Virus record (IMG/VR): IMGVR_UViG_3300032224_000681
Span: 1-54,599 of that record
From: a virus
DNA: 54,599 bases
Reading direction: 5' to 3' (one strand)
The notes under the pieces are model-generated. The model searched no databases, was not told where the DNA came from, and worked only from the letters and a program-made list of their open reading frames with translations. Below, in pieces: positions 5,869 through 48,622 of the stretch. Every line of letters begins with the position of its first letter. Position 1 is the stretch's first letter. Position numbers and translations under genes: made by a program.

Positions 5869-5871
5869 GTG

Positions 5872-5877
5872 TAGTAT
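5872..5877 (+). promoter_or_regulatory. Candidate promoter -10 (TAGTAT)
   Basis: TAGTAT lies 24 bases before the ATG at 5901, leaving room for a short leader that contains a near-perfect ribosome binding site (AAGGAGGTCC, 5890-5899). It would start the replication operon. No good -35 was seen. Confidence 0.35.
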
Positions 5878-5900
5878 GTGGGCGACCTAAGGAGGTCCAC

Positions 5901-6578
5901 ATGGATAAGTACTATGTACTGGTAGCAGGTAATGGAGCTACAAGTCGTGCAAATGTTGAAGCGTTAATGGAAGACCACTTCTATGCCAATGGCGCAGATG
6001 GTTTTGTTGTTATGCCAATCTTTGGTAACCCAACACCTTCACAAGTATTTGTAGCGCAATACGCAAAAGAAAAGAACAAGGAAGTTGTTTACGTAGCATC
6101 TGAGGGCGCTAACCTAACTAACCTTCCAGCAGCATCAATGATTAATGATGCTGACCCAATTAACAAAGCGGTTGAAATTGTTATTGGAGAGAAGGCTTCT
6201 GGCTTTCTTCTATGGTCTGATGAAGACAATACATCCCTTGACATTCTAGTTGCTTGCAAGAAAGCTGATATCAAATGCTTTGACCTTACTGACGGCCTGG
6301 TCCCTATTAATCCATCTGCTGATATTAAAAAGGCAGAAGAGGTTAAGTTTCCTGAAAAAGAAGTTGTTACAAAAGTTGAGGAGGATGAGGACGATGGCGC
6401 GGAGGAAGAAGAAAGCGGTGAAGATGAAGAGGACGACGACGAAGAGTACGAAGACGACGAAGAAGAAGCCGAAAGTCTTGAAAATCTCTATACGGGAGTC
6501 GAAGAAATAGCCCGCATCTTTGCCCGTGCTTTCAAAGAGGAGTTTAGCCGTAATGACACAGAGACCCCTAAGCCCTAA
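5901..6578 (+). CDS. Hypothetical protein with Rossmann-like N-terminus and very acidic tail
   Basis: 225 residues. Residues 1-145 look like an alpha/beta domain (KYYVLVAGNG, ADGFVVMPIFG, NKEVVYVASEG, ASGFLLWSDED, DILVACKKADIKCFDLTDG). Residues 150-205 are an almost unbroken run of Asp/Glu, followed by a short amphipathic helix (LYTGVEEIARIFARAFKEEF). An acidic tail of this kind can mimic DNA or hold a basic partner; the following gene product is basic and DNA-binding. It has a strong Shine-Dalgarno and overlaps the next gene by 26 bases. Function unknown. Confidence 0.75.
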   Translation: MDKYYVLVAGNGATSRANVEALMEDHFYANGADGFVVMPIFGNPTPSQVFVAQYAKEKNKEVVYVASEGANLTNLPAASMINDADPINKAVEIVIGEKASGFLLWSDEDNTSLDILVACKKADIKCFDLTDGLVPINPSADIKKAEEVKFPEKEVVTKVEEDEDDGAEEEESGEDEEDDDEEYEDDEEEAESLENLYTGVEEIARIFARAFKEEFSRNDTETPKP

Positions 6579-13397: not shown

Positions 13398-13470
13398 TGC
13401 CCCATAGCTCAGTTGGCAGAGCATCGCACTGTTAATGCGAGTGTCCCTGGTTCGAGTCCAGGTGGGGCAG
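13398..13470 (+). tRNA. tRNA-Asn (GTT)
   Basis: Cloverleaf of 73 nt: acceptor TGCCCCA/TGGGGCA, D stem GCTC/GAGC, anticodon stem TCGCA/TGCGA with loop CTGTTAA (anticodon GTT), T stem CCTGG/CCAGG with TTCGAGT loop, discriminator G. CCA is not encoded. It begins one base after the stop of the SNF2 helicase gene. Confidence 0.93.
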
Positions 13471-13474
13471 CGAT

Positions 13475-13550
13475 GCGGTTGTAGCTCAGTTGGTAGAGCG
13501 GCACCTTGCCAAGGTGCAGGTCGCGAGTTCGAGCCTCGTCAACCGCTCCA
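13475..13550 (+). tRNA. tRNA-Gly (GCC)
   Basis: Acceptor GCGGTTG/CAACCGC, D stem GCTC/GAGC, anticodon stem GCACC/GGTGC with loop TTGCCAA (anticodon GCC), T stem GCGAG/CTCGT (one G-T pair), discriminator T and an encoded CCA end (13548-13550). It lies four bases after tRNA-Asn. Confidence 0.93.
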
Positions 13551-13551
13551 A

Positions 13552-13623
13552 TCTCCCTTCGTCTAATTGGCAAGACTGCGGATTCTGGTTCCGCCTATCG
13601 AGGTTCGAGTCCTTGGGGGAGAG
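13552..13623 (+). tRNA. tRNA-Gln (CTG)
   Basis: Acceptor TCTCCCT/GGGGAGA, D stem GTCT/AGAC, anticodon stem GCGGA/TCCGC with loop TTCTGGT (anticodon CTG), T stem CGAGG/CCTTG, discriminator G, no encoded CCA. The T stem and acceptor each contain a G-T pair, but the fold is complete. Third of the tRNA cluster. Confidence 0.9.
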
Positions 13624-13632
13624 CTTTTAGTC

Positions 13633-24451: not shown

Positions 24452-24706
24452 ATGGCAAAAAACAATCTGGGTGCCATCTTGGACCAGTTTATTGAACAGT
24501 CAAAACAGCCTGGAAAATGCTGTATTGCAATGTGGATACAGTCATTACCAAAAGAAGATGCACAGAAGTTTGAATCGTTAAGAACAGAAAATACAAAAGT
24601 ACCTATTAAAAATTTATATGAAGCGTTGATAGCGTCAGGACATGAACTACCAGGAAAGCTCACAGCGTTTCGTTCCCATTTCAAAGGATATTGCACATGC
24701 AAATAG
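24452..24706 (+). CDS. Small hypothetical protein (possible DNA-binding)
   Basis: 84 residues from ATG 24452 (GAGGGTGGGGG upstream); the frame from 24404 is rejected. Sequence NNLGAILDQFIEQSKQPGKC, then KVPIKNLYEALIASGHELPG and TAFRSHFKGYCTC. The middle could be a short helix-turn-helix. It overlaps the phosphoesterase start by ten bases, a pairing that suggests a joint function. Confidence 0.55.
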   Translation: MAKNNLGAILDQFIEQSKQPGKCCIAMWIQSLPKEDAQKFESLRTENTKVPIKNLYEALIASGHELPGKLTAFRSHFKGYCTCK

Positions 24707-37922: not shown

Positions 37923-39800
37923 TTAGTGCCTCTTACCCATTACCAACTGCACTAGGTCTTTGGCAATATCCACTAGGTCGCGTGGCTCTGATACTACACG
38001 CATTACCTGTGCTTCGTGACGTACTTCCTTCGTATAACGTTGCCACGCGTCGTAGTCGCGCTCTTTGTACCAATCAAGGTCACCGAGGAAGGCTACGCTA
38101 GTCATAACACCTTCGTTAGATAGTTCTTTAATAATCCTATCGTTCTGTTCGGTCATATCCCATGAGCCGTCGGTTACCACGAATAGAATCTTTACGCCAC
38201 GACGGCTAGTGCGAAGTATGCGTTGCGCTTCTAATAGGGCTTTGTAAGGGTTAGTGCCACCGCTACTCTGAACGTATCGGTACTCTGTTGGCTTTGCTTT
38301 GTCCTCTGCACTATAAATTAGGCGAGAGTCATGGTTAAACTTATAAACGGATACGCGCCCGTTGATACGTTCGATACCGCGCTTGATAGTCCATGCGCTT
38401 TCCATAGTTCTCTGCATTTGCCACGACATGCTACCGCTAGTATCTACTAGGACTACCGCTTCTATGTCGTTGTTGGAGTTACCTTCCGACCACCTGTCGA
38501 ATAGGCGGTTAATATCGTTAATATCTGCCTTCATGGCACGACCTATATTTAACCGACCGCTTTCTACTTCTAACTCCCATGCAGGGTCGTTATCTATGCG
38601 TAGGCGTTCCATAGCCACGGCGAACGCTCTCGCGCTTACCTGCAACTTAGGGCTAACTGTGCTATTGGTATATGAACCCTGCTTAATAGCACTATGAGAG
38701 TTAGAATTACTGCGGATAGCCTTACGGACTTCCTGTGTATCTCGCTTAACGTCGTCACTCTTAATAAGATTATCTAGTGCGTTGTTAATCTTATCTTTAA
38801 GTTCCTTATCATCTGCGCTCTGCTTATCTGATAAGCCTGTTGTATCGTTGTTGTTAGTGTGGTCGGTTGGTTCGTCAAGGTTCTCATTACCTGCGCCACT
38901 ACCATTTTCTTGATTAGTAGCCTTATCTTGTAGTTTCTGTTGTTCCTTGTTACCTTCCATGCGACCTTTATCCATAAGTCCGCGCTCACCATGTCCACCG
39001 CCGTCCTGTGGGATAGGGCTATTACCTTGCGGTTGCTCATCTGTGCCGACTATCTGTGCGAATTGTCGGAGAATATCCAACGCTCTCGCATAGTCGCGTG
39101 GGAATACTAGGGTGCGGTATTCATGGATAATTACGGATAGTAACTGTGCAGTTTCTACACCATGCTTCTTAATAAATCTATCTGCGAGTTCCTGTCGTAA
39201 CTCTATATCTAAATACTTACGTCCTGTAAATAGTGGGAAGTAATCGGCAAACTCATGGGAGTTACCTTTCAGGATATATTCTAGGCAGGAAGCCTCTAGG
39301 AAGGGTGCGGTTGCAGGATACTTAGCGATTAGTAGTCGTTCGATACGGCTATCCTCTAGGATATTGAAGGCTCTACCTAAGCCTTCCTTTCTGATAGTCG
39401 TACCAAACTCACTACCACCACGGGGAGTCCATAGGACATGCGCGACCTCATGGTAGTTGAACCCATGAAGGCTCACGATACTTTCGTCGGTTACGTCCTC
39501 TAGTAGGTGCGCGTTGAACACGATATTCTTGCCGTCGTTATAGGCGGTCGTATCCATGTCGGGGTTATCCTCAACGCGTACTTCTACGGGGTCGCCTGTA
39601 ATAATCCTATCTGCTTTAGAATAGACGATACCAACGCTCTGTAACTTTTCGATATGAGCATTAACTTCGTCGGCTCTCGCTTCGATAGCGTCATAGTCGG
39701 TGACCCAATTACCTTCATCATCACGGCTAGAATAATTACCGCCGTAACGAAGTTCGTTAATAAGGTTATCTAATATGTCGTTCTGATTAGCCTTAGGCAT
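37923..39800 (-). CDS. HExxH metallopeptidase-like plus von Willebrand A protein (CobT/DUF2201-like)
   Basis: 625 residues from ATG 39800 (GAAGGTG upstream, overlap with the AAA+ gene stop). N-terminal domain: YHEVAHVLWTP (HExxH at 117-121) and, 28 residues later, NILEDSRIERLL (Glu/Asp 149-150), the gluzincin-like set also seen in DUF2201 and CobT N-termini. A low-complexity linker (about 255-345) leads to a VWA domain with MIDAS DTSGS (453-457), SSGGTNPYKAL and FVVTDGSWD. VWA proteins of this type work with MoxR/CobS AAA+ partners, which is the next gene. Role in the phage is unknown. Confidence 0.75.
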   Translation of the reverse strand: MPKANQNDILDNLINELRYGGNYSSRDDEGNWVTDYDAIEARADEVNAHIEKLQSVGIVYSKADRIITGDPVEVRVEDNPDMDTTAYNDGKNIVFNAHLLEDVTDESIVSLHGFNYHEVAHVLWTPRGGSEFGTTIRKEGLGRAFNILEDSRIERLLIAKYPATAPFLEASCLEYILKGNSHEFADYFPLFTGRKYLDIELRQELADRFIKKHGVETAQLLSVIIHEYRTLVFPRDYARALDILRQFAQIVGTDEQPQGNSPIPQDGGGHGERGLMDKGRMEGNKEQQKLQDKATNQENGSGAGNENLDEPTDHTNNNDTTGLSDKQSADDKELKDKINNALDNLIKSDDVKRDTQEVRKAIRSNSNSHSAIKQGSYTNSTVSPKLQVSARAFAVAMERLRIDNDPAWELEVESGRLNIGRAMKADINDINRLFDRWSEGNSNNDIEAVVLVDTSGSMSWQMQRTMESAWTIKRGIERINGRVSVYKFNHDSRLIYSAEDKAKPTEYRYVQSSGGTNPYKALLEAQRILRTSRRGVKILFVVTDGSWDMTEQNDRIIKELSNEGVMTSVAFLGDLDWYKERDYDAWQRYTKEVRHEAQVMRVVSEPRDLVDIAKDLVQLVMGKRH

Positions 39801-41340
39801 TTGCGTCACCTTCTGCTAGGACTTCCATAAGCGCATTAAGCGACTTTAGTTCATCATCAAGTGCCTGTACGGCGGTAACGTCGGGGTCGTTAGTGCTAAC
39901 GACGGACTCGTATGAAGCGACCTGTGTGCCTACTTCTGTATTAGCAATAGCCTGTTCTAAATTAGTATTGCCAAACACACTAGCCTTATTAGTAACTTCT
40001 AGTCCTAGTTCCTCTGCGATATTGTCGCGGTGGGTATTGACGACTAGGCGAACGCTATTGCGTTCCTCATCACCCTCAAACGAATTAACGTAAGTGTAGG
40101 TAGCGAAGTCCATGCCAAACTGCTTTGCATGCTTTACGAACGCTACGAGTGAGCGAGTAGATACGGGGGTCAATAACGTACCCTTATTAAACTCATCACG
40201 AAGTAGGTTAGCCATATCTACTAGGGCTTTGTTACCGAGTAACTTCTGTTCGATAGGCTTATCGTATGGGAAGGATAGGCGTACTGCGAAGCGGTCGGCT
40301 AGTGCCTGATTAAGCGGACGTGTGCCACGATAGTCGGGGTTCATGTCTGCCACGATTAGTAGGTCGGGGTGAGCCTTGATAACTTCCCCACCATTTTCCA
40401 TAAGTTGTATCTCACGGCGGTAATCTAATAGGCTAAAGATAAAGGTAAGGAATCTTTCGGGTGCGAAGTTAATTTCGTTAAATAGTAGTACGCCACCATT
40501 ACGGACAATTTCTGTAACTGCGCCGTCCTGCCAACGGAAGTGACCTTCGGGGGTTGGAATCCAACGACCGATAAGGTGGGAAGCCTCTAGTCCAATATGG
40601 CATGCCACGTTGAAGTAGCGCATGCCACGGGCAGACGCATAAGCCTGAACGCTCATAGTCTTACCTGACCCTGCGTGACCTTCGATAAGGATATTCATAT
40701 CGTTGGCGTTGGCGTAGTCATATACCTCAAAGTCGGTGAGGTTACCCACGACCTTGCGGTTGATATATTCCTTAGCCCACTTCTTGTCGGGTACGGATAC
40801 CATAGCCGTAACTAGGCTATTAGATAGGTTGGCATTGTTAATAGTCGTAGTAGATACGACGGGTACTTCGATAACCTTAGTAGCGACCTCTGTTTCTACT
40901 GCCTTTGCGATAGGCTTAATAGATACACCGCCTGTACGACGCTTATCTGTAATGAAGTCGGCAAGGGTATTGTCGCCTTCCTCTAGGCGTGTAATAAGAC
41001 TATCTACTGCCTCATTGTGTGCCATTGGCGCGGTTGCTTCGGGTGCGCTTTCTAACGCATATAGGGCTTTGATACCGATATTGGTAATTTGCCCAAACTT
41101 CATCATTTCAATATCCCTATCTGATAGGACTACGGCGCATGGCGCGTGGCTAATATCGGTGGTTGGGATAGTGCTATCTGTAAGTCGTTGCCATGATTGA
41201 CCGCGACCCTTCTGTCCATTGGATACGCGGTGGTATCCAATAACCTCTGTATCTGTACCGATAATGAGAGTCTGCGCCTGTGCAGGTACTCCTTCTAGTT
41301 CGGCGTTAGACACTACGAGTAGTGCTAGATTTGTATTCAT
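39793..41340 (-). CDS. MoxR/CobS-type AAA+ ATPase
   Basis: 515 residues. N-terminal 190 residues are of unknown type. The AAA+ core has Walker A GHAGSGKT (221-228), Walker B-like GGVLLFNEINFAPE (282-295; Asn where most relatives have Asp), sensor 1 DLLIVADMNPDYRGTRPL and the arginine-finger segment ALADRFAVRLSF. This is the MoxR/CobS clade, which acts on partners carrying a VWA domain, here the adjacent gene. First gene of the long minus operon; two copies of the 22-bp promoter element lie upstream. Confidence 0.78.
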   Translation of the reverse strand: MNTNLALLVVSNAELEGVPAQAQTLIIGTDTEVIGYHRVSNGQKGRGQSWQRLTDSTIPTTDISHAPCAVVLSDRDIEMMKFGQITNIGIKALYALESAPEATAPMAHNEAVDSLITRLEEGDNTLADFITDKRRTGGVSIKPIAKAVETEVATKVIEVPVVSTTTINNANLSNSLVTAMVSVPDKKWAKEYINRKVVGNLTDFEVYDYANANDMNILIEGHAGSGKTMSVQAYASARGMRYFNVACHIGLEASHLIGRWIPTPEGHFRWQDGAVTEIVRNGGVLLFNEINFAPERFLTFIFSLLDYRREIQLMENGGEVIKAHPDLLIVADMNPDYRGTRPLNQALADRFAVRLSFPYDKPIEQKLLGNKALVDMANLLRDEFNKGTLLTPVSTRSLVAFVKHAKQFGMDFATYTYVNSFEGDEERNSVRLVVNTHRDNIAEELGLEVTNKASVFGNTNLEQAIANTEVGTQVASYESVVSTNDPDVTAVQALDDELKSLNALMEVLAEGDANA

Positions 41341-41401: not shown

Positions 41402-41460
41402 GGCATAATCTCTCTATATTAAAGACGGCTCTCTAATCTGTTCACCTAGTTATCCACAAC
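41402..41460 (-). promoter_or_regulatory. DnaA-box promoter module 1 (MoxR operon)
   Basis: 22-bp element at 41439-41460 (TGTTCACCTA then GTTATCCACAAC on the plus strand). The -10 is not clear: TATGCC at 41 bases (41402-41407) or TATAGA at 30. It is the proximal element of the MoxR/VWA operon and the least typical copy. Confidence 0.55.
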
Positions 41461-41596
41461 CCCCCTCTCTCTACGGCTGAACAACCTATGAACAACTTAT
41501 CATCATAATAAGCCTATCCCATAGCCGTACATCTGGTCGTATCCCTACACACCTCATAAGCCTATTAGACAGTAGCCGAGGTGGCTCTCTCATCTC

Positions 41597-41652
41597 TCAT
41601 TATCATGGCTCTCTCTGCTAGTCAAATCTTTGTTAACCGAGTTATCCACAGG
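41597..41652 (-). promoter_or_regulatory. DnaA-box promoter module 2
   Basis: Element 41631-41652 (TGTTAACCGA, GTTATCCACAGG). At 38 bases lies TAATGA (weak); GATAAT at 36 bases is a better -10. A second, distal promoter of the MoxR operon, or the promoter of a small RNA in 41461-41600. Confidence 0.55.
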
Positions 41653-41660
41653 CGCGGCGG

Positions 41661-41802
41661 GTTTGTGTTGGGCAATAGCCTACGGCTTATTGCCCAACAA
41701 TGAAATGAGCCCTTTTTTAATATAAAAAAGGCTCAAAAAGGGTGGGTTAGTGAATAATGTATAATTGAATACATTATGAACGATGGGTGGGCCAACACAA
41801 AC
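41661..41802. repeat. Inverted repeat system behind module 2
   Basis: Outer arms GTTTGTGTTGG (41661-41671) and CCAACACAAAC (41792-41802). Inside are a perfect 12-bp hairpin TGTTGGGCAATA / TATTGCCCAACA (41666-41699) and a perfect 9-bp hairpin ATAATGTAT / ATACATTAT (41754-41777), plus GAGCC-TTTTTT / AAAAAA-GGCTC around 41707-41734. Confidence 0.75.
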
Positions 41803-41822
41803 ATCCAGGCCCGCGGCATGAG

Positions 41823-41857
41823 AAAGCCCCTTGCTAGTCCAAATAGCAAGGGGCTTT
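41823..41857 (-). terminator. Terminator of the 41912-43208 operon
   Basis: AAAGCCCCTTGCTA (41823-41836) pairs perfectly with TAGCAAGGGGCTTT (41844-41857), 14 bp with a 7-base loop. On the minus strand it is followed by a short T-rich stretch. Confidence 0.8.
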
Positions 41858-41911
41858 GGTGGTATCACCCGAAGGGGACGGAGATACTACAACCTAGTAC
41901 CACCACTAGGA

Positions 41912-42316
41912 TTATGATAGACCCATTTTCTTCTGTATTTCTATTGCTAGGTCTAAATCTATGGGTTTGATAGTCTTATCTGAGTAGTCCTCGCCGTACT
42001 GATAGGTCTTGTTATCTTGTACGCTTATTAGATACATAGCACCTAGGCACTCCATACTCCAATTAGCGTCGTTCCAATCCCTATCCTCAGGTGTGAGGTT
42101 CATGTATTCGCGGATTAGCACTCCGTCGGGGTCTTTCTCCTCGTCCCACTCTGCGTCCTCGTCCCATGAGAAGTACAACGCATGAGCCTCTGCCATGTGT
42201 TCTGCCTCATCTGATGAGTTAGCCGTGCCGTGTGCGATACAGGAATCGCAATACCATATCCACCCACTAATAGTGCTACTACATGTGTTTGGGGTAATCA
42301 GGTCTTTAATTTGCAT
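41912..42316 (-). CDS. Acidic hypothetical protein
   Basis: 134 residues. An early WYCDSCIAHGTANSSDEAEH looks like a one-knuckle zinc site with His residues behind; the rest is very acidic and Trp-rich (YFSWDEDAEWDEEKDPDGVL, RDWNDANWSMECLGAM). GAGGAGACC precedes the ATG. Last gene of its operon. Unknown function. Confidence 0.62.
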   Translation of the reverse strand: MQIKDLITPNTCSSTISGWIWYCDSCIAHGTANSSDEAEHMAEAHALYFSWDEDAEWDEEKDPDGVLIREYMNLTPEDRDWNDANWSMECLGAMYLISVQDNKTYQYGEDYSDKTIKPIDLDLAIEIQKKMGLS

Positions 42317-42485
42317 TGGTGGTCTCCTCTACCTCTGTACATTGGGCTATCTTACTAATATCAAAACCATACTGTTCTAGTAGGTTCTCAATCGCGTATT
42401 CCACCGCGTCGTCCTCATCTACGGCGTTAATAGTCGTATGAAGTGTGAAGTAGTCAGCCACAAAGGTTACGTTCCAGTATTTCAT
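42306..42485 (-). CDS. Small hypothetical protein
   Basis: 59 residues from ATG 42485 (overlaps the previous stop): MKYWNVTFVADYFTLHTTIN, then AVDEDDAVEYAIENLLEQYG. A beta hairpin followed by a helix; this arrangement (strands, then DEDDAVEYA) is common in small phage proteins. Overlaps the next gene by 11 bases. Confidence 0.58.
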   Translation of the reverse strand: MKYWNVTFVADYFTLHTTINAVDEDDAVEYAIENLLEQYGFDISKIAQCTEVEETTNAN

Positions 42486-42706
42486 TGTGCCACTTCTAAC
42501 ATCATATATGACCAACCCTCATTGGATTTCTCCATTACGGGCTTAATGCTATCTAATAGGGTTGATTTACCCGCCTCTACCATAGCCTCATTGGGGATAC
42601 CGCTAGTTACATACTCTAGATACTTGTGTTCCTCAATACATACATTGAACTGTACTGTGAAGGGTACTTCTACCAGTTTTACGCCGTTAATAACCTTAGT
42701 CGTCAT
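42482..42706 (-). CDS. Small hypothetical protein
   Basis: 74 residues: VKLVEVPFTVQFNVCIEEHK, then AMVEAGKSTLLDSIKPVMEK. Beta-rich first half, helical end. Overlaps both neighbours. No family recognised. Confidence 0.57.
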   Translation of the reverse strand: MTTKVINGVKLVEVPFTVQFNVCIEEHKYLEYVTSGIPNEAMVEAGKSTLLDSIKPVMEKSNEGWSYMMLEVAQ

Positions 42707-43208
42707 TTTTCACCATTTGTTCTAGTAAATCCTCTAGCCCTGCGTCTAGTAGAAAGATTGGGTCGAACTTCTGTGCCTTTGCCTCTACCGAAGCGTTAGG
42801 ACGGAATATGAGTGGTAGGTCGTCAGGTACTTCTACGTCCATAACTGCCAACATCTTACCTAACCCACCTAATAGCATTAGCATTGGTGTTAGAGCACCG
42901 CTAGCCCATGCGATATGGATTGCTAGGGTTATTGCACCCAAGTCGTCGTCATTGACCTGTTCGTCAGCGTCATGCTTGTTTCTGCAAGACTCGAAGCCTG
43001 TATTGGCGAGCGCGTTAATAAGGTTACCACGGAAGTCGTCGTCCTCTCTCATAGCCTGTGCCATGATAGCGGTCTTTAGATTGCCGTCTGATAAGCCTAG
43101 TGTGCCGTTAGGAAACATAGGCTCGTAACTCTCGTCCTCAAAATCAGGAAGTAGTTCGATTGTCGTCATTAACTCTGTAAAACGCGCTTTGCGTTCTGTG
43201 CTGTCCAT
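42696..43208 (-). CDS. Hypothetical protein, first gene of its operon
   Basis: 170 residues from ATG 43208 (AAAGGAGATACT upstream; the longer frame to 43262 is rejected). Helical, acidic; contains TAIMAQAMREDDDFRGNLIN, CRNKHDADEQVNDDDLGAIT and a hydrophobic GALTPMLMLLGGLGKMLAVM. The pattern (tests membership of a subset by small helices) is not one I recognise. Controlled by DnaA-box module 3. Confidence 0.6.
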   Translation of the reverse strand: MDSTERKARFTELMTTIELLPDFEDESYEPMFPNGTLGLSDGNLKTAIMAQAMREDDDFRGNLINALANTGFESCRNKHDADEQVNDDDLGAITLAIHIAWASGALTPMLMLLGGLGKMLAVMDVEVPDDLPLIFRPNASVEAKAQKFDPIFLLDAGLEDLLEQMVKNDD

Positions 43209-43236
43209 AGTATCTCCTTTACTAAGTAACGGCGTA

Positions 43237-43292
43237 ACTATAATCCTCTCCCCCTCTCTCACCTAATATCTGTTCATGTAGTTATCCACAGG
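43237..43292 (-). promoter_or_regulatory. DnaA-box promoter module 3
   Basis: Element 43271-43292 (TGTTCATGTA, GTTATCCACAGG); 38 bases further on the minus strand TATAGT (43237-43242). A short palindrome TTACTTAGTAA starts seven bases after the -10, followed by the ribosome binding site of the 43208 gene. Confidence 0.72.
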
Positions 43293-43293
43293 T

Positions 43294-43386
43294 GTTTGTG
43301 TTGGGGCTATTAGATGGCGCTTTGATAGATAAATCTATCAAAGCAATAAAAGCTTTAAATAGCCATCTAATAGCCCCAACACAAAC
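43294..43386. repeat. Large nested inverted repeat behind module 3
   Basis: Perfect 25-bp arms at 43294-43318 and 43362-43386 (outer part GTTTGTGTTGGG / CCCAACACAAAC, inner part unit-specific). Inside the loop is a second perfect 12-bp hairpin GCTTTGATAGAT / ATCTATCAAAGC (43319-43344). Confidence 0.9.
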
Positions 43387-43404
43387 TTTTACGGCATGAA
43401 AAAA

Positions 43405-43424
43405 CCCCCGCCTTGCGGCGGGGG
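43405..43424 (-). terminator. Terminator of the 43445-43930 gene
   Basis: CCCCCGCC / GGCGGGGG around TTGC; on the minus strand it is followed by TTTTTT, an ideal intrinsic terminator. Confidence 0.9.
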
Positions 43425-43444
43425 CTTCCTAGTAGGGGTATCTA

Positions 43445-43930
43445 CTAAGCCTCGTAAATCTCGACCTCGAGGTTATCATTTAGGAAATCATCTAAATCCC
43501 ATGTACCCACACGGAATGATGCGGAGTCATTTAAGACCGATAGGTCACCGCGAACTTCGATATCGTTGAAAGAGATATCGTCTAGAACCTGTTGCTTTGC
43601 GGCTTCTTCATCATCAGCCTCGATGTCATCAAGTTCAAGTACAACTTCACCCAAGAGGCTAACCTCTGCGCGAAATCGTGTGATAAGGTCGCTAGCCTCG
43701 GCTGTCTCCCAACCGCATGCAATCGCAATCTTATTAAATAGGTCAAGCGCGTCTTCTTCGGTCATTGAGGTACGAGCCTCGACTTTGAAGATATTAAGGA
43801 CATCTGCGCGGTTTTCTGCGCGGAGTGAATTACGTGCCATTTCTATAGCACGTGAGCGTTCTTCCTCTATGCGGGGAGCAATGTCGCTCTCCTCATAGTA
43901 GGTTATGTCGTTGAGTGTGAACATACCCAT
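43445..43930 (-). CDS. Acidic hypothetical protein (single-gene unit)
   Basis: 161 residues: GMFTLNDITYYEESDIAPRI, a helical middle (EEERSRAIEMARNSLRAENR, TSMTEEDALDLFNKIAIACG) and an acidic beta-like end (VVLELDDIEADDEEAAKQQV, GTWDLDDFLNDNLEVEIYEA). Start at 43930; a second ATG lies two codons on. One gene between its own promoter module and terminator. Unknown function. Confidence 0.62.
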   Translation of the reverse strand: MGMFTLNDITYYEESDIAPRIEEERSRAIEMARNSLRAENRADVLNIFKVEARTSMTEEDALDLFNKIAIACGWETAEASDLITRFRAEVSLLGEVVLELDDIEADDEEAAKQQVLDDISFNDIEVRGDLSVLNDSASFRVGTWDLDDFLNDNLEVEIYEA

Positions 43931-43942
43931 TCTTTCTCTTTT

Positions 43943-43963
43943 ATAAGCACCCCTTGTGCTTAT
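43943..43963 (-). promoter_or_regulatory. 5'-terminal stem-loop of the 43930 transcript
   Basis: On the minus strand ATAAGCAC / GTGCTTAT (8 bp) around the loop AAGGG. It begins six bases after the -10 of module 4, so it would be the very 5' end of the RNA. Confidence 0.65.
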
Positions 43964-43969
43964 GGGATA

Positions 43970-44025
43970 AGAGTATTGGTTACTCGTCAGTAACTAAAAC
44001 TCTTGTTTACCTAGTTATCCACAGC
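43970..44025 (-). promoter_or_regulatory. DnaA-box promoter module 4
   Basis: Element 44004-44025 (TGTTTACCTA, GTTATCCACAGC), then 38 bases and TACTCT (43970-43975). Between them is the inverted repeat GTTACT-GACG-AGTAAC on the minus strand, at the place of the missing -35. Confidence 0.68.
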
Positions 44026-44030
44026 CCCGT

Positions 44031-44112
44031 GTTTGTGTTGGGCTTGGGTATAAATAAGAGAGGCATTAATACATAGCTTTTAAATATACCCATCCCCAAG
44101 CCCAACACAAAC
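44031..44112. repeat. Large inverted repeat behind module 4
   Basis: Perfect 18-bp arms at 44031-44048 and 44095-44112, same outer 12 bp as the other copies. The 46-base loop has TATACCC, which can pair alternatively with the inner arm GGGTATA. Confidence 0.88.
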
Positions 44113-44114
44113 AA

Positions 44115-44147
44115 ATTAGCCCCCCGACTCCACTTCGGGGGGCTAAT
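44115..44147 (-). terminator. Terminator of the 44211-44690 gene
   Basis: ATTAGCCCCCCGA (44115-44127) pairs perfectly with TCGGGGGGCTAAT (44135-44147); a short T-rich stretch (TTTG) follows on the minus strand. Confidence 0.8.
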
Positions 44148-44210
44148 CTGAGAACGGACTGTATGTCAACACAGTAAGCCTTTTATACTCATGCTCAGGA
44201 GTTAATAGTC

Positions 44211-44690
44211 TTACCAAGACGACTGATAGTAGAAACTCAAGTCGTCGATATTAGGCAAGGCAAGTATGCGGTCAATCTGTTTGATAGTGCTTTTTAGCCC
44301 GTTCCAATACCACTCGTCAATATCTGTAGTACCAAAGAAAAACCCTTCCATAGGCTTGATTAGCAGAGGATTTTTATGAAAGATAGCCTGACGGCATGCT
44401 TCACGCAATTCCTCTAACTTAGCCTTAGAAACGTAGTAGTTACCGCAATCGTCGTTGCCACCCTGAACGTTCTGTACGAACCAACCATGAACGGCGTTGA
44501 CCTTACGCCAGTAGGCGCAGGTAACTGAAACCTCTGCCCCATAGATGTCTGTATGGACTGCTTCTAAGCCAGCCTCTGTAACAACCTTATCAAATTGTTC
44601 CATAGTAACCCAAGCGTCGCTATCGCCCTTTGCGTTGTAGTCAATCTTGTTGATGTAAGTTGTTGCCCTTAGATACATATCTAGACCCAT
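44211..44690 (-). CDS. Conserved phage protein of the MGLDMYL type (single-gene unit)
   Basis: 159 residues. The start MGLDMYLRATTYINKIDYNA and the segments CAYWRKVNAVHGWFVQNVQG, CGNYYVSKAKLEELREACRQ and FFFGTTDIDEWYWNGLKSTI are those of a widespread phage and bacterial family of unknown function that begins with MGLDMYL. The HxxF/W and Trp-rich core suggests a small soluble enzyme or binding protein. Own promoter module and terminator. Confidence 0.68.
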   Translation of the reverse strand: MGLDMYLRATTYINKIDYNAKGDSDAWVTMEQFDKVVTEAGLEAVHTDIYGAEVSVTCAYWRKVNAVHGWFVQNVQGGNDDCGNYYVSKAKLEELREACRQAIFHKNPLLIKPMEGFFFGTTDIDEWYWNGLKSTIKQIDRILALPNIDDLSFYYQSSW

Positions 44691-44719
44691 GTGATACCCC
44701 TTTGGTAGTTAAATCTCTC

Positions 44720-44732
44720 GCTCGGTGCGAGC
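44720..44732 (-). promoter_or_regulatory. 5'-terminal stem-loop of the 44690 transcript
   Basis: GCTCG / CGAGC on the minus strand around a three-base loop, starting five bases after the -10 of module 5. Confidence 0.5.
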
Positions 44733-44737
44733 CCCCA

Positions 44738-44794
44738 AGTATAATCACACATCTAATTCTCTTACCATATTCTGTTAACCCAGTTATCCACAGG
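44738..44794 (-). promoter_or_regulatory. DnaA-box promoter module 5
   Basis: Element 44773-44794 (TGTTAACCCA, GTTATCCACAGG), then 39 bases and TATACT (44738-44743), a strong -10. Controls the 44690 gene. Confidence 0.75.
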
Positions 44795-44799
44795 CGAAT

Positions 44800-44889
44800 G
44801 TTTGTGTTGGGTTGTTTGGATAATGGCTGATTTTGAGAGAATAAGCTTTCCCTATTTATTAACTACTAGCCAAACAACCCAACACAAAC
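44800..44889. repeat. Large inverted repeat behind module 5
   Basis: Perfect 20-bp arms at 44800-44819 and 44870-44889; the outer 12 bp are the common GTTTGTGTTGGG arm and the inner eight are specific (TTGTTTGG / CCAAACAA). Loop 50 bases. Confidence 0.88.
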
Positions 44890-44895
44890 AAAAAA

Positions 44896-44919
44896 GCTCC
44901 GCACCTTTCGGTGCGGAGC
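44896..44919 (-). terminator. Terminator of the DUF932 gene
   Basis: GCTCCGCACC / GGTGCGGAGC around TTTC; on the minus strand a run of T follows. Strong intrinsic terminator. Confidence 0.9.
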
Positions 44920-44935
44920 CTTCTTGCTAGGCTTG

Positions 44936-45943
44936 CTAGACCCCAGCGTACTCGCGGACGGCGCGTAGGATACGAGCCTTCTCAGCGTTCACAGTAGGGT
45001 CGAAACCAGCAGCAGCGCCAACGATAGCCTCGTTATTGCTTGTACGACCAGCGCGGAAATAATCCAAGCGCTCAGTCAGTGCGTTAAGGGCGCCCCAGTA
45101 ATTGCCCTTGATATTGGTCTGGGTAGGGGACTGGAAATAAATATCATCCAGTAGGTCGCGCTTGGCTTGCCACTTGGTAAGTGACTGAGGCGCTGATTGT
45201 GCGTCAGGCTTAGGATAAATTGCGTTCACCAATTTATCCCATGCAACTGAGTCCATAGAGGACTGGAAAAGGTCTTTCGCAATGGTCTCGAAAGTGTCCA
45301 TGTGATTGAAAGTAAGCCCAAGAACGCGACGAGCCTCAGCGGTACGCTCGCCAGCCTTGAGAGTATGGCGCAACTTGAAAGATTGCTTAACGCCCTTGAG
45401 CGCCATATTGAGAGTGTTTTGGCAGACTACGCGAACTGGCGTAATCGACGCGGTAACACTGGCAGACCCGTCGTGTGAAGATGAGACGAGCAGATATGTA
45501 ATGGTCTTATCGTTCGCACCCTTAGGGTCGAGGATAAACTCACGAGGTACGACGAGGGAGCCGAAAACTACCTTGCCGTTTTTAATAGAGCCAGCAGATT
45601 CCCATGAGGCACCGCCGTCGAGGATATTGTCCCCGAACGCGAATAAATCCTCGTTTTGGAATACGCGATAGCGCTTACCAACGACCGCAAGGACATCCTT
45701 GCCAGCGTCGAATGGATTGGTGCGTGTGACCATGAATAGGTCAGTGGATGAGCGGTAATCCGCTGGATACTGGACAGGCTCGAGGTCTACACCCCAGCCA
45801 GCCAATTTGGCACTTTCCAGCATGTCGCTAGTAGAGACATGCTCGTCAATGCCGAAAGTACGATTAGCCAACTTATGCCATGCGGGCGCACCGCGCAAAG
45901 CAAAAGCCACCTCACCGTTTTGAACCTCGAGCGCATGAGCCAC
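44936..45943 (-). CDS. DUF932 (phage/plasmid-like) protein
   Basis: 335 residues from GTG 45943 (AAGGGGG six bases upstream). Start MAHALEVQNGEVAFALRGAP followed by AWHKL, then RYRVFQNEDLFAFGDNILDG, GKVVFGSLVVPREFIL, TYLLVSSSHDGSASVTASIT, TPVRVVCQNTLNMAL and FKLRHT: the DUF932 / TIGR03299 layout, full length. The family is common on phages and plasmids and its biochemical role is not established. Single-gene unit with module 6, a 5' stem-loop and a strong terminator. Confidence 0.88.
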   Translation of the reverse strand: MAHALEVQNGEVAFALRGAPAWHKLANRTFGIDEHVSTSDMLESAKLAGWGVDLEPVQYPADYRSSTDLFMVTRTNPFDAGKDVLAVVGKRYRVFQNEDLFAFGDNILDGGASWESAGSIKNGKVVFGSLVVPREFILDPKGANDKTITYLLVSSSHDGSASVTASITPVRVVCQNTLNMALKGVKQSFKLRHTLKAGERTAEARRVLGLTFNHMDTFETIAKDLFQSSMDSVAWDKLVNAIYPKPDAQSAPQSLTKWQAKRDLLDDIYFQSPTQTNIKGNYWGALNALTERLDYFRAGRTSNNEAIVGAAAGFDPTVNAEKARILRAVREYAGV

Positions 45944-45966
45944 GAGAGTCCCCCTTCGGTAAATAA

Positions 45967-45983
45967 CGCGAGACCTTCTCGCG
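45967..45983 (-). promoter_or_regulatory. 5'-terminal stem-loop of the DUF932 transcript
   Basis: CGCGAGA / TCTCGCG around AGG (minus strand), perfect 7 bp, starting seven bases after the -10 of module 6. Confidence 0.65.
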
Positions 45984-45990
45984 TGTGCAT

Positions 45991-46047
45991 ATCTTAACCC
46001 TATCTCTCGTCTCTTATAATAATCTTGTTAACCTACTTATCCACAGG
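45991..46047 (-). promoter_or_regulatory. DnaA-box promoter module 6
   Basis: Element 46026-46047 (TGTTAACCTA, CTTATCCACAGG; the base before the box differs), then 39 bases and TAAGAT (45991-45996). Confidence 0.7.
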
Positions 46048-46056
46048 GCGCCGATT

Positions 46057-46145
46057 GTTTGTGTTGGGCTTGTTGCTAGTAGTTAAAGAAAGAAAGAAAG
46101 CTATTCCACTCAACATCAACCATTAACAACAAGCCCAACACAAAC
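46057..46145. repeat. Large inverted repeat behind module 6
   Basis: Perfect 19-bp arms at 46057-46075 and 46127-46145. The 51-base loop contains a purine-rich (AAAG)n-like run. Confidence 0.88.
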
Positions 46146-46147
46146 AA

Positions 46148-46175
46148 ATAGCCCCAGCCGATTGGCTGGGGCTAT
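46148..46175. terminator. Terminator of the 46203-46604 unit
   Basis: ATAGCCCCAGCC / GGCTGGGGCTAT around GATT, 12 bp. A second hairpin TTTTACAC / GTGTAAAA (46179-46199) lies between it and the gene. Confidence 0.85.
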
Positions 46176-46202
46176 GTTTTTTACACGGGGGGTGTAAAAC
46201 CC

Positions 46203-46604
46203 TTAGACGAGAGGCTCGTCAATTTTGAACAGGTCGCGTAGCGCCTGAAGTTGCTTTTGGTACTTGCGGGCTTGCGCCTTGTAGTTATCGCGTTCAGCGA
46301 TTAGGTCGGCTATCATTTTATCGACAGTACCGATTGCGCCTTCTTGCTTAGCCTTTTTGGTCTTATACTTACCGCGTGTCTTAGGCTTAGCATTAGCAGG
46401 ATTGTGTGTGCCTACGTGAATAGACATTTGTGGACGTGAGAGCGTTTGCTCACCACATGTGAGGCAACCATAACTGACTAGAATGTTGTTGCTTTCTTCT
46501 AGCCATGTTAATTCAACCATATTGTTGAAGAATGTACCTGCTCGCATTGGATTAGGTACAGTATTGCGCTCGCATAGAATTGCGTTTTTGCGTGTGAATT
46601 GCAT
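46203..46604 (-). CDS. C2H2-like zinc-finger protein with coiled coil
   Basis: 133 residues from ATG 46604 (GGGGGG seven bases upstream); a GTG at 46625 is an alternative. VSYGCLTCGEQTLSRPQMSI then HVGTHN gives C-x2-C...H-x3-H, a single zinc finger. A basic linker (KPKTRGKYKTKKAKQ) and a coiled coil (DKMIADLIAERDNYKAQARK, YQKQLQALRDLF) follow. Probably DNA- or RNA-binding and dimeric. Preceded by a 12-codon reading frame with its own ribosome binding site. Confidence 0.65.
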   Translation of the reverse strand: MQFTRKNAILCERNTVPNPMRAGTFFNNMVELTWLEESNNILVSYGCLTCGEQTLSRPQMSIHVGTHNPANAKPKTRGKYKTKKAKQEGAIGTVDKMIADLIAERDNYKAQARKYQKQLQALRDLFKIDEPLV

Positions 46605-46624
46605 ATTATCACCCCCCTGTTGCA

Positions 46625-46663
46625 CTAGAGTTTCTCCCTTAGGAGTTCGACGTATCTCGTCAT
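46625..46663 (-). CDS. Possible leader peptide (12 aa)
   Basis: ATG at 46663 with AGGAGAACTACC in front encodes MTRYVELLREKL and stops at 46625. It lies in the leader of the zinc-finger gene, and its TAG overlaps an alternative GTG of that gene. It may control translation of the gene behind it or may simply be a re-initiation device. Small size keeps confidence low. Confidence 0.35.
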   Translation of the reverse strand: MTRYVELLREKL

Positions 46664-46685
46664 GGTAGTTCTCCTATCTATCTAG

Positions 46686-46703
46686 ATGAGCCGTGTTGCT
46701 CAT
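46686..46703 (-). promoter_or_regulatory. 5'-terminal stem-loop of the 46604 transcript
   Basis: ATGAGC / GCTCAT around a six-base loop on the minus strand, starting six bases after the -10 of module 7. Confidence 0.6.
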
Positions 46704-46709
46704 GTGAGT

Positions 46710-46766
46710 ACTATAACCATAAATCCTAAATCTTATTCCCCCCTTGTTCATCTAGTTATCCACAGG
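46710..46766 (-). promoter_or_regulatory. DnaA-box promoter module 7
   Basis: Element 46745-46766 (TGTTCATCTA, GTTATCCACAGG), then 39 bases and TATAGT (46710-46715). Confidence 0.73.
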
Positions 46767-46771
46767 CAGGA

Positions 46772-46850
46772 GTTTGTGTTGGGGCGTGTGTATATATAAA
46801 GAAGCTTTTAAGCCATACATACATACACACCCACACGCCCCAACACAAAC
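46772..46850. repeat. Large inverted repeat behind module 7
   Basis: Perfect 19-bp arms at 46772-46790 and 46832-46850 with the common outer part. The TATATATA and ATACATAC stretches inside could extend the stem imperfectly. Confidence 0.88.
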
Positions 46851-46854
46851 AAGA

Positions 46855-46880
46855 AAGCCCCCTGTGACGGCAGGGGGCTT
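46855..46880 (-). terminator. Terminator of the 46897-47474 operon
   Basis: AAGCCCCCTG / CAGGGGGCTT around a six-base loop, followed on the minus strand by TCTTGTTTG. Confidence 0.8.
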
Positions 46881-46896
46881 CTTGCAGGGGGTTTAG

Positions 46897-47199
46897 TTAT
46901 GCGGCTTGCCTTACGGCAAGCGCACGACGGATATAATTCTGTTGCTTGCTTGTAGTAGGGCTGAACTTCTGTTCTACTACATACCAGCCATTTTCCCCGA
47001 ACCATGCGATAGGCGTATTGTATGAGAAGACAATATAGGCGCCTTGCTTGAACTCGTTTGATAGTCTTATGAATTCATCGCCTAGACGTCCCGCGCCTGG
47101 TGTGTAATTCATATACTTACCGCTTAGAGATGAAGCCTCGAATGGCATGCGGTTGATAATGCGCTCGATTGCTTCTTTCTGATTAACGTGCATTTTCAT
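46897..47199 (-). CDS. Hypothetical protein
   Basis: 100 residues from ATG 47199 (AGAAAGG upstream); the longer frame to 47337 is a shadow of the gene before it. Sequence VNQKEAIERIINRMPFEASS, AYIVFSYNTPIAWFGENGWY, VVEQKFSPTTSKQQNYIRRA. A helix plus a beta meander; HTH-like end. Last gene of a three-gene unit. Unknown family, although similar short phage proteins (IAWFGENGWYVV) occur. Confidence 0.6.
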   Translation of the reverse strand: MKMHVNQKEAIERIINRMPFEASSLSGKYMNYTPGAGRLGDEFIRLSNEFKQGAYIVFSYNTPIAWFGENGWYVVEQKFSPTTSKQQNYIRRALAVRQAA

Positions 47200-47341
47200 A
47201 GTCGTAACCTTTCTGACTGTCCTCGTAACCCTCACTGTAACCCTTGAACCAGTAGGCGCGAGAGGTGAAGAAGAATACCGCTCCACCGATGATGATATCG
47301 ACGAGAAGATTGAAGCCGTTATAGAAGATGATTTCATGCAT
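47183..47341 (-). CDS. Small membrane protein, one transmembrane segment
   Basis: 52 residues from ATG 47341 (overlaps the zinc-protein stop). MHEIIFYNGFNLLVDIIIGG and AVFFFTSRAYWF make a single membrane span, followed by an acidic, Tyr-rich cytoplasmic end (GYSEGYEDSQKGYDYENAR). Might be an inhibitor or membrane tether; unknown. Confidence 0.6.
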   Translation of the reverse strand: MHEIIFYNGFNLLVDIIIGGAVFFFTSRAYWFKGYSEGYEDSQKGYDYENAR

Positions 47342-47474
47342 TGACTCGCTCCGCTTCCTTGTTAGCACACTCGTAGCAGATTTGTTCAATTCTATCCATG
47401 CAACCTAATAGAAACGCGTCTACGCCACTATGCACGATGTTTTCTGTTGTGCCACATATTGAACACTTGTTCAT
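47334..47474 (-). CDS. Zinc-ribbon microprotein
   Basis: 46 residues: MNKCSICGTTENIVHSGVDA, then a later CYECANKEAERVNA. Two CxxC knuckles 29 residues apart. First gene of its unit behind module 8 and a 5' stem-loop. Unknown function. Confidence 0.62.
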   Translation of the reverse strand: MNKCSICGTTENIVHSGVDAFLLGCMDRIEQICYECANKEAERVNA

Positions 47475-47489
47475 TTGATACCCCTATCT

Positions 47490-47506
47490 GTGAGCCCCTT
47501 GCTCAC
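47490..47506 (-). promoter_or_regulatory. 5'-terminal stem-loop of the 47474 transcript
   Basis: GTGAGC / GCTCAC around AAGGG on the minus strand; starts seven bases after TAAATT of module 8. Same loop as at 43943 and 48537. Confidence 0.6.
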
Positions 47507-47513
47507 TGTCTGT

Positions 47514-47569
47514 AATTTATAGTTTTGTGTCGGTCTGTGCAACTATCTGTTAACTTAGTTATCCACAGG
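47514..47569 (-). promoter_or_regulatory. DnaA-box promoter module 8
   Basis: Element 47548-47569 (TGTTAACTTA, GTTATCCACAGG). TAAATT at 38 bases (47514-47519), overlapping TATAAA at 36 bases; either can be the -10. Confidence 0.68.
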
Positions 47570-47579
47570 GTTTTAATGT

Positions 47580-47601
47580 GGGGGCAGGTTGCCCTGCCCC
47601 C
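47580..47601 (-). terminator. Terminator of the 47609-47794 gene
   Basis: GGGGGCAGG / CCTGCCCCC around TTGC. No large inverted repeat accompanies this one; the hairpin directly follows module 8. Confidence 0.75.
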
Positions 47602-47608
47602 TTGCGGG

Positions 47609-47794
47609 CTACGCCGTAATTTCTGCGATAGCCTTATTGATTGCCTTTTCTACCGCGTCGCTTGTAATTGTTTCGATAACCTTTTGGGAAACCGCATCTA
47701 CACGCGCCTGTAGGTCTGCGTTATCTAAAACGCCCTTAGAGATTGCTAGCGCTGAAAGTATCATCGCCCAATCCTCAGGTGTAAATTTATCCAT
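47609..47794 (-). CDS. Small helical protein (single-gene unit)
   Basis: 61 residues from ATG 47794 (GGGGGTG eight bases upstream): MDKFTPEDWAMILSALAISK, then VDAVSQKVIETITSDAVEKA. All helical. Own promoter module and terminator. No family recognised. Confidence 0.58.
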   Translation of the reverse strand: MDKFTPEDWAMILSALAISKGVLDNADLQARVDAVSQKVIETITSDAVEKAINKAIAEITA

Positions 47795-47846
47795 ATATAT
47801 CACCCCCTTGCCGTCATCTAGTAGGTCATTATTAAGTTATGAGAGA

Positions 47847-47902
47847 AGACTATTTGAAAGGCTTATTAGATGCAAACGCCCGTTAACCTAGTTATCCACA
47901 GG
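47847..47902 (-). promoter_or_regulatory. DnaA-box promoter module 9
   Basis: Element 47881-47902 (CGTTAACCTA, GTTATCCACAGG), then 38 bases and TAGTCT (47847-47852). The sequence CGTTTGCAT downstream of the element is shared with module 10. GTTTGTGTTGA (47950-47960) behind it is a single arm without partner. Confidence 0.68.
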
Positions 47903-47995
47903 CTCTCTTGTTCTTGGGGTTCTTTTGCCAGTCCCTATGCCGTTCTAATGTTTGTGTTGACCCACCCTCCCCATACCCCTACGGGGAATCGAGAG

Positions 47996-48023
47996 AGAGG
48001 CTGGGGGGGAAGTCCCAGCCTCT
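47996..48023 (-). terminator. Terminator of the 48027-48517 unit
   Basis: AGAGGCTGGG (47996-48005) pairs with CCCAGCCTCT (48014-48023); four bases after the stop of the gene on the minus strand. Confidence 0.75.
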
Positions 48024-48026
48024 GCT

Positions 48027-48389
48027 CTACTTGATTACAGTAACCATATCTTTCCACGTGTAGTTTATGGTTAAAGCCTCGTGCCATTCGCACCACCATT
48101 CGCCGTTATATTCGGCGCCACACCATTCAGGTTCATCGCAGGTAACCCATACCACGATATCGTCTGACCGCTTGTACTTGCGCCATTCATCGTCGGGTGC
48201 ATGTAGTGCAGGTGCTGCCTTGCAACCTACCTTGATTACATCGTCAGTAATGCCGTAGTTGCGTGGGTTGTCCTGTATATCCAACAGGAGCGCGTCTACT
48301 GACTCGTACAACATGTTGTCATAGTCGGTGACGATTATGTCCGCGTTATATATCTTGCCCTTGATAGTGGGCGCTGTCTCGTATGCCAT
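48027..48389 (-). CDS. Hypothetical protein
   Basis: 120 residues. First half: KGKIYNADIIVTDYDNMLYE, then DALLLDIQDNPRNYGITDDV. Second half: DIVVWVTCDEPEWCGAEYNG and WWCEWHEALTINYTWKDMVT, Trp-rich with three cysteines. TAATG overlap with the microprotein upstream. No family recognised. Confidence 0.6.
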   Translation of the reverse strand: MAYETAPTIKGKIYNADIIVTDYDNMLYESVDALLLDIQDNPRNYGITDDVIKVGCKAAPALHAPDDEWRKYKRSDDIVVWVTCDEPEWCGAEYNGEWWCEWHEALTINYTWKDMVTVIK

Positions 48390-48517
48390 TATTCGCCACG
48401 TCCCGTCAATAGTAGGAAAGCCTTACCTAGTTTGCTATTGCGATAGCACTCGCGCTTAGCGCATGTATCGCATAGGTGAAAGCGAGTTACTAGATGATAT
48501 TCGATTGCTCGTATCAT
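48389..48517 (-). CDS. Cysteine-containing microprotein
   Basis: 42 residues from ATG 48517 (GGGGGATAAC upstream): MIRAIEYHLVTRFHLCDTCA, then KRECYRNSKLGKAFLLLTGR. The C-x2-C...C group with preceding His recalls the small CxxC-RECY type found in actinobacterial DNA-binding proteins. First gene of the rightmost minus unit. Confidence 0.58.
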   Translation of the reverse strand: MIRAIEYHLVTRFHLCDTCAKRECYRNSKLGKAFLLLTGRGE

Positions 48518-48536
48518 GTTATCCCCCATGCTATTC

Positions 48537-48555
48537 GGTGAGCCCCTTGCTCACC
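48537..48555 (-). promoter_or_regulatory. Leader stem-loop of the 48517 transcript
   Basis: GGTGAGC / GCTCACC around AAGGG (minus strand), starting 11 bases after the -10 of module 10. Nearly identical to the stem-loop at 47490. Confidence 0.58.
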
Positions 48556-48566
48556 TTGTATTGCAT

Positions 48567-48622
48567 ACACTATGCCATAGCCCTATTACATGCAAACGTT
48601 TGTTAACCTGGTTATCCACAGG
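48567..48622 (-). promoter_or_regulatory. DnaA-box promoter module 10
   Basis: Element 48601-48622 (TGTTAACCTG, GTTATCCACAGG), then 38 bases and TAGTGT (48567-48572). Last copy, at the divergent border with the plus-strand genes. Confidence 0.7.

Follow-up and report, generated by a model that had tools for sequence, protein, structure and literature searches.

A 22-bp Element with a Perfect DnaA Box Upstream of Nine Promoter-Like Sequences in a Viral Record, and Its Replacement in Related Phages

Introduction

The extended start-associated sequences (ESAS) of cluster K phages are repeated, promoter-bearing and lineage-specific sites (PMC3203893, PMC11373665). This report addresses a 22-bp element that contains a DnaA box and occurs ten times in the IMG/VR virus record IMGVR_UViG_3300032224_000681, of which positions 1 to 54,599 form the window, meaning the whole stretch of 54,599 nucleotides that was analysed. 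Like the element, ESAS and the start-associated sequences (SAS) stand in many same-oriented copies before the non-structural genes of one actinophage. ESAS combine inverted repeats with a SigA-like promoter, and the consensus of the inverted repeats differs between subclusters. However, the SAS is a 13-bp sequence (GGGATAGGAGCCC) lying 3-9 bp from the start codon, whereas the element has another sequence and lies 62-98 nt upstream (290 in one copy). The ESAS repeats measure 15-17 bp and are held inside a promoter motif of 46-47 bp; here, the inverted repeat is upstream of the element and outside the promoter. Also unlike ESAS, the element sits upstream of the -35 box, carries a DnaA box and follows a separate hairpin of 70-90 nt.

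The stoperators of cluster A mycobacteriophages, with more than 20 copies per genome (PMC6550527, PMC9283540), offer a further likeness. They are asymmetric, keep one orientation relative to transcription (as the element does in 10 of 10 copies), and have a consensus that differs between related phages. Yet most stoperators lie outside promoters and belong to a known repressor and a temperate phage, whereas all copies of the element are upstream of a promoter-like sequence, with TANNNT present in 8 of 10. A stoperator phage encodes a helix-turn-helix repressor; here, neither an integrase nor an HTH_3 domain was found in the window or its closer relatives, in records that may be incomplete.

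DnaA is an activator and a repressor of transcription in several bacteria (PMC8203912), and it stimulates transcription at the phage lambda origin, according to work cited in PMC3985674. The DnaA-regulated promoters described there (dnaA, nrdAB, lambda origin; PMC8203912, PMC3985674) resemble the element in having TTATCCACA close to a sigma-70-type promoter. These known cases are single promoters, whereas here the box stands at nine promoters of one phage. Additionally, the isolated Streptomyces phage Evy (Stanwilliamsviridae, MK977711; L147 1-14326) has a comparable layout, with one promoter per gene around its DUF932 gene. That gene lies in a terminal block of small genes, many of which have a terminator to themselves and a TAGACT-type -10. 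In contrast to the window, the Evy promoters have no DnaA boxes, and another repeated word (CGGGCCCGGACA) follows the terminators.

The Repeated Element

The first-pass annotation of this DNA had described ten intergenic copies of the element in one orientation, each with a perfect DnaA box. A search of the whole window with the pattern TGTTAACCTAGTTATCCACAGG, allowing up to 3 mismatches and taking the chance level from 100 shuffles, bears this out, with exactly ten matches, all on the plus strand and at the same ten coordinates, against 0 expected. In the coding sense (minus strand) the element reads CCTGTGGATAACTAGGTTAACA, and its copies are as follows.

48601-48622, minus strand: element copy 1 (CCTGTGGATAACCAGGTTAACA); start codon at 48517
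47881-47902, minus strand: element copy 2
47548-47569, minus strand: element copy 3
46745-46766, minus strand: element copy 4, right half GATGAACA
46026-46047, minus strand: element copy 5, before the DUF932 gene
44773-44794, minus strand: element copy 6
44004-44025, minus strand: element copy 7
43271-43292, minus strand: element copy 8, right half CATGAACA
41631-41652, minus strand: element copy 9, the outer of the two copies before the MoxR operon
41439-41460, minus strand: element copy 10, the inner of the two copies before MoxR; the ATG at 41340 is 98 nt downstream

All ten copies are intergenic and share a single orientation relative to transcription. The nine-base DnaA box, for which TTATCCACA or a permitted variant near a promoter would qualify, is the exact TTATCCACA in every copy. 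The 22-bp consensus given by the annotation holds within 3 mismatches throughout and is matched exactly by no copy (mismatch counts 3, 1, 3, 2, 1, 1, 2, 1, 1 and 1). All 16 mismatches fall outside TTATCCACA, for which an even spread over the 22 positions would give a probability of about 2e-4 by our own arithmetic. The right half is more variable, reading GTTAAC in six copies, TGAAC in three and TAAAC in one. Of the 11 exact TTATCCACA matches in the window, 10 are clustered in one gene block; the eleventh, at 37132, is on the opposite strand within a small open reading frame (ORF). The motif search found no further copy of the element anywhere else in the viral record.

The distance from the element to the next plausible start codon is 62-98 nt, except for the outer copy before MoxR (41631), where it is 290 nt. 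The ten copies stand before nine transcription units, the MoxR/VWA operon being preceded by two, as annotated. The other genes of the element-bearing units are small and of unknown function.

44936-45943, minus strand: DUF932 protein (4e-46), gene behind copy 5
39793-41340, minus strand: MoxR-type AAA ATPase (AAA_5, 3e-22), first gene behind copies 9 and 10
37923-39809, minus strand: VWA-domain protein (VWA, 5e-7), second gene of the MoxR operon

Promoter Geometry

Downstream of the element, a -10 hexamer of the form TANNNT is found at a distance of 28-29 nt in 8 of the 10 window copies. When the window is taken together with G002 and G006, two relatives with the same element (type A, described below), the count is 18 of 27 copies. 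Scoring the best pair of neighbouring offsets in each of 2000 shuffles never gave more than 8. The fixed spacing is also present, less strongly than in type A, in the related types B, C and A'. From the usual place of a -10, the element would lie at about -62 to -41. The predicted promoter parts are listed by copy.

48567-48572, minus strand: -10 TAGTGT of copy 1 (position computed from the 28-nt offset); -35 TTGCAT 17 bp upstream
47847-47852, minus strand: -10 TAGTCT of copy 2; -35 TTGCAT
47514-47519, minus strand: -10 TAAATT of copy 3; -35 TTGCAC
46710-46715, minus strand: -10 TATAGT of copy 4; -35 poor (GAATAA)
45991-45996, minus strand: -10 TAAGAT of copy 5; -35 TTATAA
44738-44743, minus strand: -10 TATACT of copy 6; -35 poor (GGTAAG)
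43970-43975, minus strand: -10 TACTCT of copy 7; -35 TTTAGT
43237-43242, minus strand: -10 TATAGT of copy 8; -35 poor (TAGGTG)
Promoter of copy 9: TTGACT at -35 and TAATGA at the -10 place; no TANNNT at 28/29 nt
Promoter of copy 10: no TANNNT at 28/29 nt

A fair -35 box (TTGCAT, TTGCAC or TTGACT) is seen in four copies; the others have GAATAA, TTATAA, GGTAAG, TTTAGT, TAGGTG and similar, so that most -35 hexamers are poor. A consensus promoter scan recovered few of these promoters, in line with the weak -35 boxes. We hold with high confidence that the element is real, non-random, promoter-associated and common to nine units.

The leaders of several units have features of their own. Directly behind the promoter at 46745 and ahead of a larger ORF, a 12-codon leader ORF (MTRYVELLREKL) is found at 46625-46663 on the minus strand, and similar leaders (MTRFV...) take the same place in G002 and G006. 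Short GC-rich hairpins lie between the -10 and the ribosome-binding site at 48537-48555 and in the leaders of units 47548, 46026, 44773 and 44004; one form (GTGAGCAAGGGGCTCAC) occurs in two units, and relatives have similar ones.

The Hairpin-Terminator Cassette

In 6 of the 10 copies, a long inverted repeat whose outer arms are conserved (GTTTGTGTTGG/CCAACACAAAC) stands shortly upstream and is itself preceded by a terminator. Five of these repeats, folded as RNA, reach -38 to -58 kcal/mol with z-scores of -6 to -14.

46772-46850: long inverted repeat upstream of copy 4 (-43.4 kcal/mol, z -7.6)
46055-46147: long inverted repeat upstream of copy 5 (-48.7 kcal/mol, z -10.2)
44799-44890: long inverted repeat upstream of copy 6 (-42 kcal/mol, z -9.2)
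44030-44113: long inverted repeat upstream of copy 7 (-37.9 kcal/mol, z -6.3)
43294-43386: long inverted repeat upstream of copy 8 (-57.7 kcal/mol, z -13.8)
41661-41802: upstream of copy 9, a widely spaced version of the inverted repeat that encloses a 12-bp hairpin (41666-41699)
46148-46175, minus strand: rho-independent terminator just upstream of an inverted repeat; others at 46854-46881 and 44112-44150

The hairpin arms are under selection. Among 57 distinct inverted repeats from many phages, the sequences of the inner arms differ widely, while true partners pair at 9.0 of 12 inner positions, against 4.0 for arms matched with foreign partners and 5.2 in the largest permuted mean. Own-partner pairing thus exceeds foreign-partner pairing, and it is therefore the pairing, not the sequence, that has been kept. 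Terminator, long hairpin, element and promoter would together form a repeated cassette that separates neighbouring units. In metagenomes, the conserved hairpin cassette can also serve as a simple DNA marker by which such phages are recognised.

Exchange of the Element Among Relatives

The expectation that related phages carry the element before the same genes holds for the close relatives. The type A relatives (G002, G006 and G019, all from IMG/VR) have 5-9 copies before the same genes, confined to this block. Related phages of other types have the same gene slots and hairpins with different elements. In type A' (G001), the DnaA box is followed by two RTGAACR units 11 bp apart, and the box is often doubled, G001 carrying 11 boxes in all; as an observation apart, the doubled elements of this phage (L040) stand 24-35 bp from each other at single promoters (5866-5911, 7306-7351 and 9842-9898). 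Type B (G014-G018) has CCTGTGGATAACT and then GTTAT repeats 11 bp apart. Type C (G013) has CCTGTGAGTTT...CGGCGTGTCG instead of a DnaA box at these promoters, and possesses only two DnaA boxes in all, together beside one hairpin. Its DUF932 protein is nevertheless 80% identical to that of the window.

Types A, A' and B have the left half TGTGGATAA in common and differ in the right half, which has been replaced; the two halves therefore evolve separately. The earlier proposal of a nine-base direct repeat, GGATAAC-TA-GGTTAAC, as the site of a dimer is not supported. Such a repeat exists in part only, being lost from copies 4, 7, 8 and 10 as well as from the relatives.

In a tree built from DNA polymerase, NrdJ, RecA and MoxR, G001 and G013 are sisters with full support. 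Since the A' and C phages are sisters, the element must have been exchanged at all promoters of one lineage in concert. Genes, hairpins and promoter layout went unchanged through this exchange. A concerted exchange of the word, with genes, hairpins and spacing kept, would be a natural experiment on a regulon that changes its regulator. In the place that the 22-bp element takes in type A phages, a palindrome (TGTGGCGCWTATCACA) resembling a CRP/GlxR site is found before MoxR in types B and C (G014:27800-27830, G015, G016, G017, G018 and G013).

DnaA Boxes Beside Distant Hairpins

A scan with the hairpin alone matched 37 stretches of DNA. The distant set consisted of 17 contigs outside types A-C, in which 120 bp on each side of the hairpin were examined. 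These flanks contain 21 exact copies of TTATCCACA against 0.08 expected, about 260-fold above chance, and 13 DnaA boxes with one mismatch against 1.6 expected. The mismatch is at box position 3 or 5 in 8 of the 13 (binomial about 0.003 by our own arithmetic, for contigs that are not independent), and the variants include TTGTCCACA and TTATACACA. Single boxes, direct repeats and inverted pairs such as TGTGGATAACTTTATCCACA are all present. These variants and arrangements are those expected for DnaA.

Other words stand beside the same hairpin, namely 11-bp GTTAT/GTTAC repeats, GGCGTGTC and CCTGAGAGT. When the distances between repeated 5-mers were counted over 144 flanks, enrichment was highest at 11 bp (70, where 9 were expected) and next highest at 12 bp (63, mostly TGAGAG repeats by eye). 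Single-copy matches of the first scan in high-GC contigs (L012, L016-L018 and others) were rejected as DnaA-box stretches in unrelated contigs from which the cassette is absent.

Candidate Readers of the Element

We lean, if only slightly, toward nine co-regulated sigma-A-type promoters governed by a composite element, with host DnaA on the left and a second, lineage-specific protein on the right. The element would be the upstream regulatory site of promoters that serve the small-gene cluster, the DUF932 gene and the MoxR/VWA operon. Its place beside -35 boxes that are mostly weak is one from which an activator would contact the host RNA polymerase. The left half (CCTGTGGATAAC) would most likely be bound by host DnaA, and the right half (GTTAAC/GTGAAC) by another DNA-binding protein, one that would differ from one phage lineage to the next. 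Such promoters are probably active, DnaA probably binds the element, and the binding would activate rather than repress; the units behind it may be expressed early.

For the left half, the balance tips somewhat toward host DnaA as its reader. Neither DnaA domain IV nor an OmpR-type DNA-binding domain was found in 25 records, many of them fragments; with no phage DnaA found, the reader of a left half that is a DnaA site would be the host protein. The annotation had proposed one regulon read by DnaA or a mimic. The shared element at nine promoters, the fixed distance to the -10 and the DnaA-box-like core in relatives support this view, but DnaA alone cannot account for everything, since these promoters have no DnaA box in a phage with an 80%-identical DUF932 protein.

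Several observations weigh against the composite reading with DnaA. The type C phage is sister to the A' phage and lacks the boxes at these promoters, TANNNT is absent from its expected place in 2 of 10 window copies, and the related contigs of the comparison panel are not independent. Additionally, the best-studied actinobacterial DnaA boxes are TTGTCCACA (PMC4285127), not TTATCCACA. An actinobacterial host is suggested by the WhiB protein, a marker of actinophages (PMC10202952), and by DUF932 relatives in Streptomyces and Mycobacterium phages. It would probably be a low-GC actinobacterium, and the low G+C of the window would fit a group such as Nanopelagicales; two exact tRNA-Gly patterns gave no match in a collection of genome contigs.

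A serious, if rather unlikely, rival is a phage-encoded regulator of lineage-specific specificity that reads the whole 22 bp in the manner of a stoperator system, the DnaA box being coincidental. Sites that differ between close relatives and are switched in concert are what is expected if one trans-acting protein changes. The best candidate, a small protein at 24452-24706, diverges far more than its neighbours, and the start of its putative last helix is P-x-K in types A and A', P-M-G in C and P-x-E/Q in B. However, its structure model is of low confidence (predicted local distance difference test score, pLDDT, 59.5), it has no Pfam match, and the DnaA-tolerated variants and arrangements in distant phages fit DnaA better. 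Sigma region 4, tyrosine integrase and serine integrase were not found in 23 records, many of them fragments. The lack of an integrase also speaks against such a regulator, as does the result for the HTH_3 domain, with one match in the distant G028, one below the cut-off in G026 and none in the window or closer relatives. A listing of proteins found in few types gave no clear candidate for a type-specific regulator gene. The MerR-like and WhiB proteins encoded in the window show little divergence between the two sister phages whose elements are A' and C, which gives no reason to see a reader in either protein. Binding of the MerR-like protein in the manner of BldC was rejected, the BldC repeats being AATTNNNN(C) with 9 bp (PMC5859096), unlike the element.

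The composite reading itself could be refined, in a form we regard as doubtful, by assigning the right half to a host response regulator of the OmpR family (PhoP- or MtrA-like); the promoters would then respond to host physiology through two host factors. PHO boxes are 11-nt GTTCACC repeats (PMC6988585), and MtrA sites consist of direct repeats at a distance of 11 bp (PMC5650626). The direct repeats of 11 bp that adjoin the DnaA box in A' (RTGAAC-N5-RTGAACA) and B (GTTAT-N6-GTTAT), and those of L113 (GTTAC-N6-GTTAC), resemble them, a resemblance only, and 11 bp is the distance most enriched in the flanks. Two units at this distance are found in A' and B, whereas the window element contains a single half site; the sequences are loosely alike, and other repeats (12-bp TGAGAG) are also enriched.

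The boxes could instead mainly titrate host DnaA, at least 10 high-affinity boxes per genome, multiplied by phage replication, depriving the host origin of its initiator. The concentration of 10 of 11 exact boxes in one gene block and the 11 boxes of G001, some doubled, would suit this, but titration needs neither the fixed -10 spacing nor the single orientation and strict promoter location, and type C does without boxes; we find it improbable. Least probable of all is that the boxes are parts of the phage replication origin. DnaA boxes and repeats are typical of origins, and the phage encodes its own DnaC-like loader and, judging from the translations, also a primase and a DnaB-like helicase; yet ten units are spread over 7 kb, one per promoter and with genes between, and close relatives have unrelated replacements.

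Should DnaA read these promoters, there would be a direct link between the expression of phage genes and the state of the host replication cycle. To our knowledge, the places where such a link has been shown for a phage are single ones, for example the lambda origin. A literature search for DnaA boxes at phage early promoters returned two papers under broader terms and none under stricter ones. It is possible, and we put it forward tentatively, that a wide group of uncultured, apparently non-integrating actinophages keeps a gene block under host DnaA and a second host regulator by means of the hairpin-plus-site cassette, with sister phages swapping the word in concert, perhaps with a change of host or of host regulator.

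Other Features of the Window

The small protein at 24452-24706 ends in H-x4-C-x-C, diverges strongly between otherwise close relatives and has weak matches to proteins of Mycobacterium and Gordonia phages. An Rfam scan of the window returned tRNAs only, and three tRNA genes (Asn, Gly, Gln) lie in a row at 13398-13624. Before the gene of the DnaC-like loader, a putative winged-helix protein (6520-7458) shows 33-41% identity in relatives, the neighbouring genes being mostly at 60-95%.

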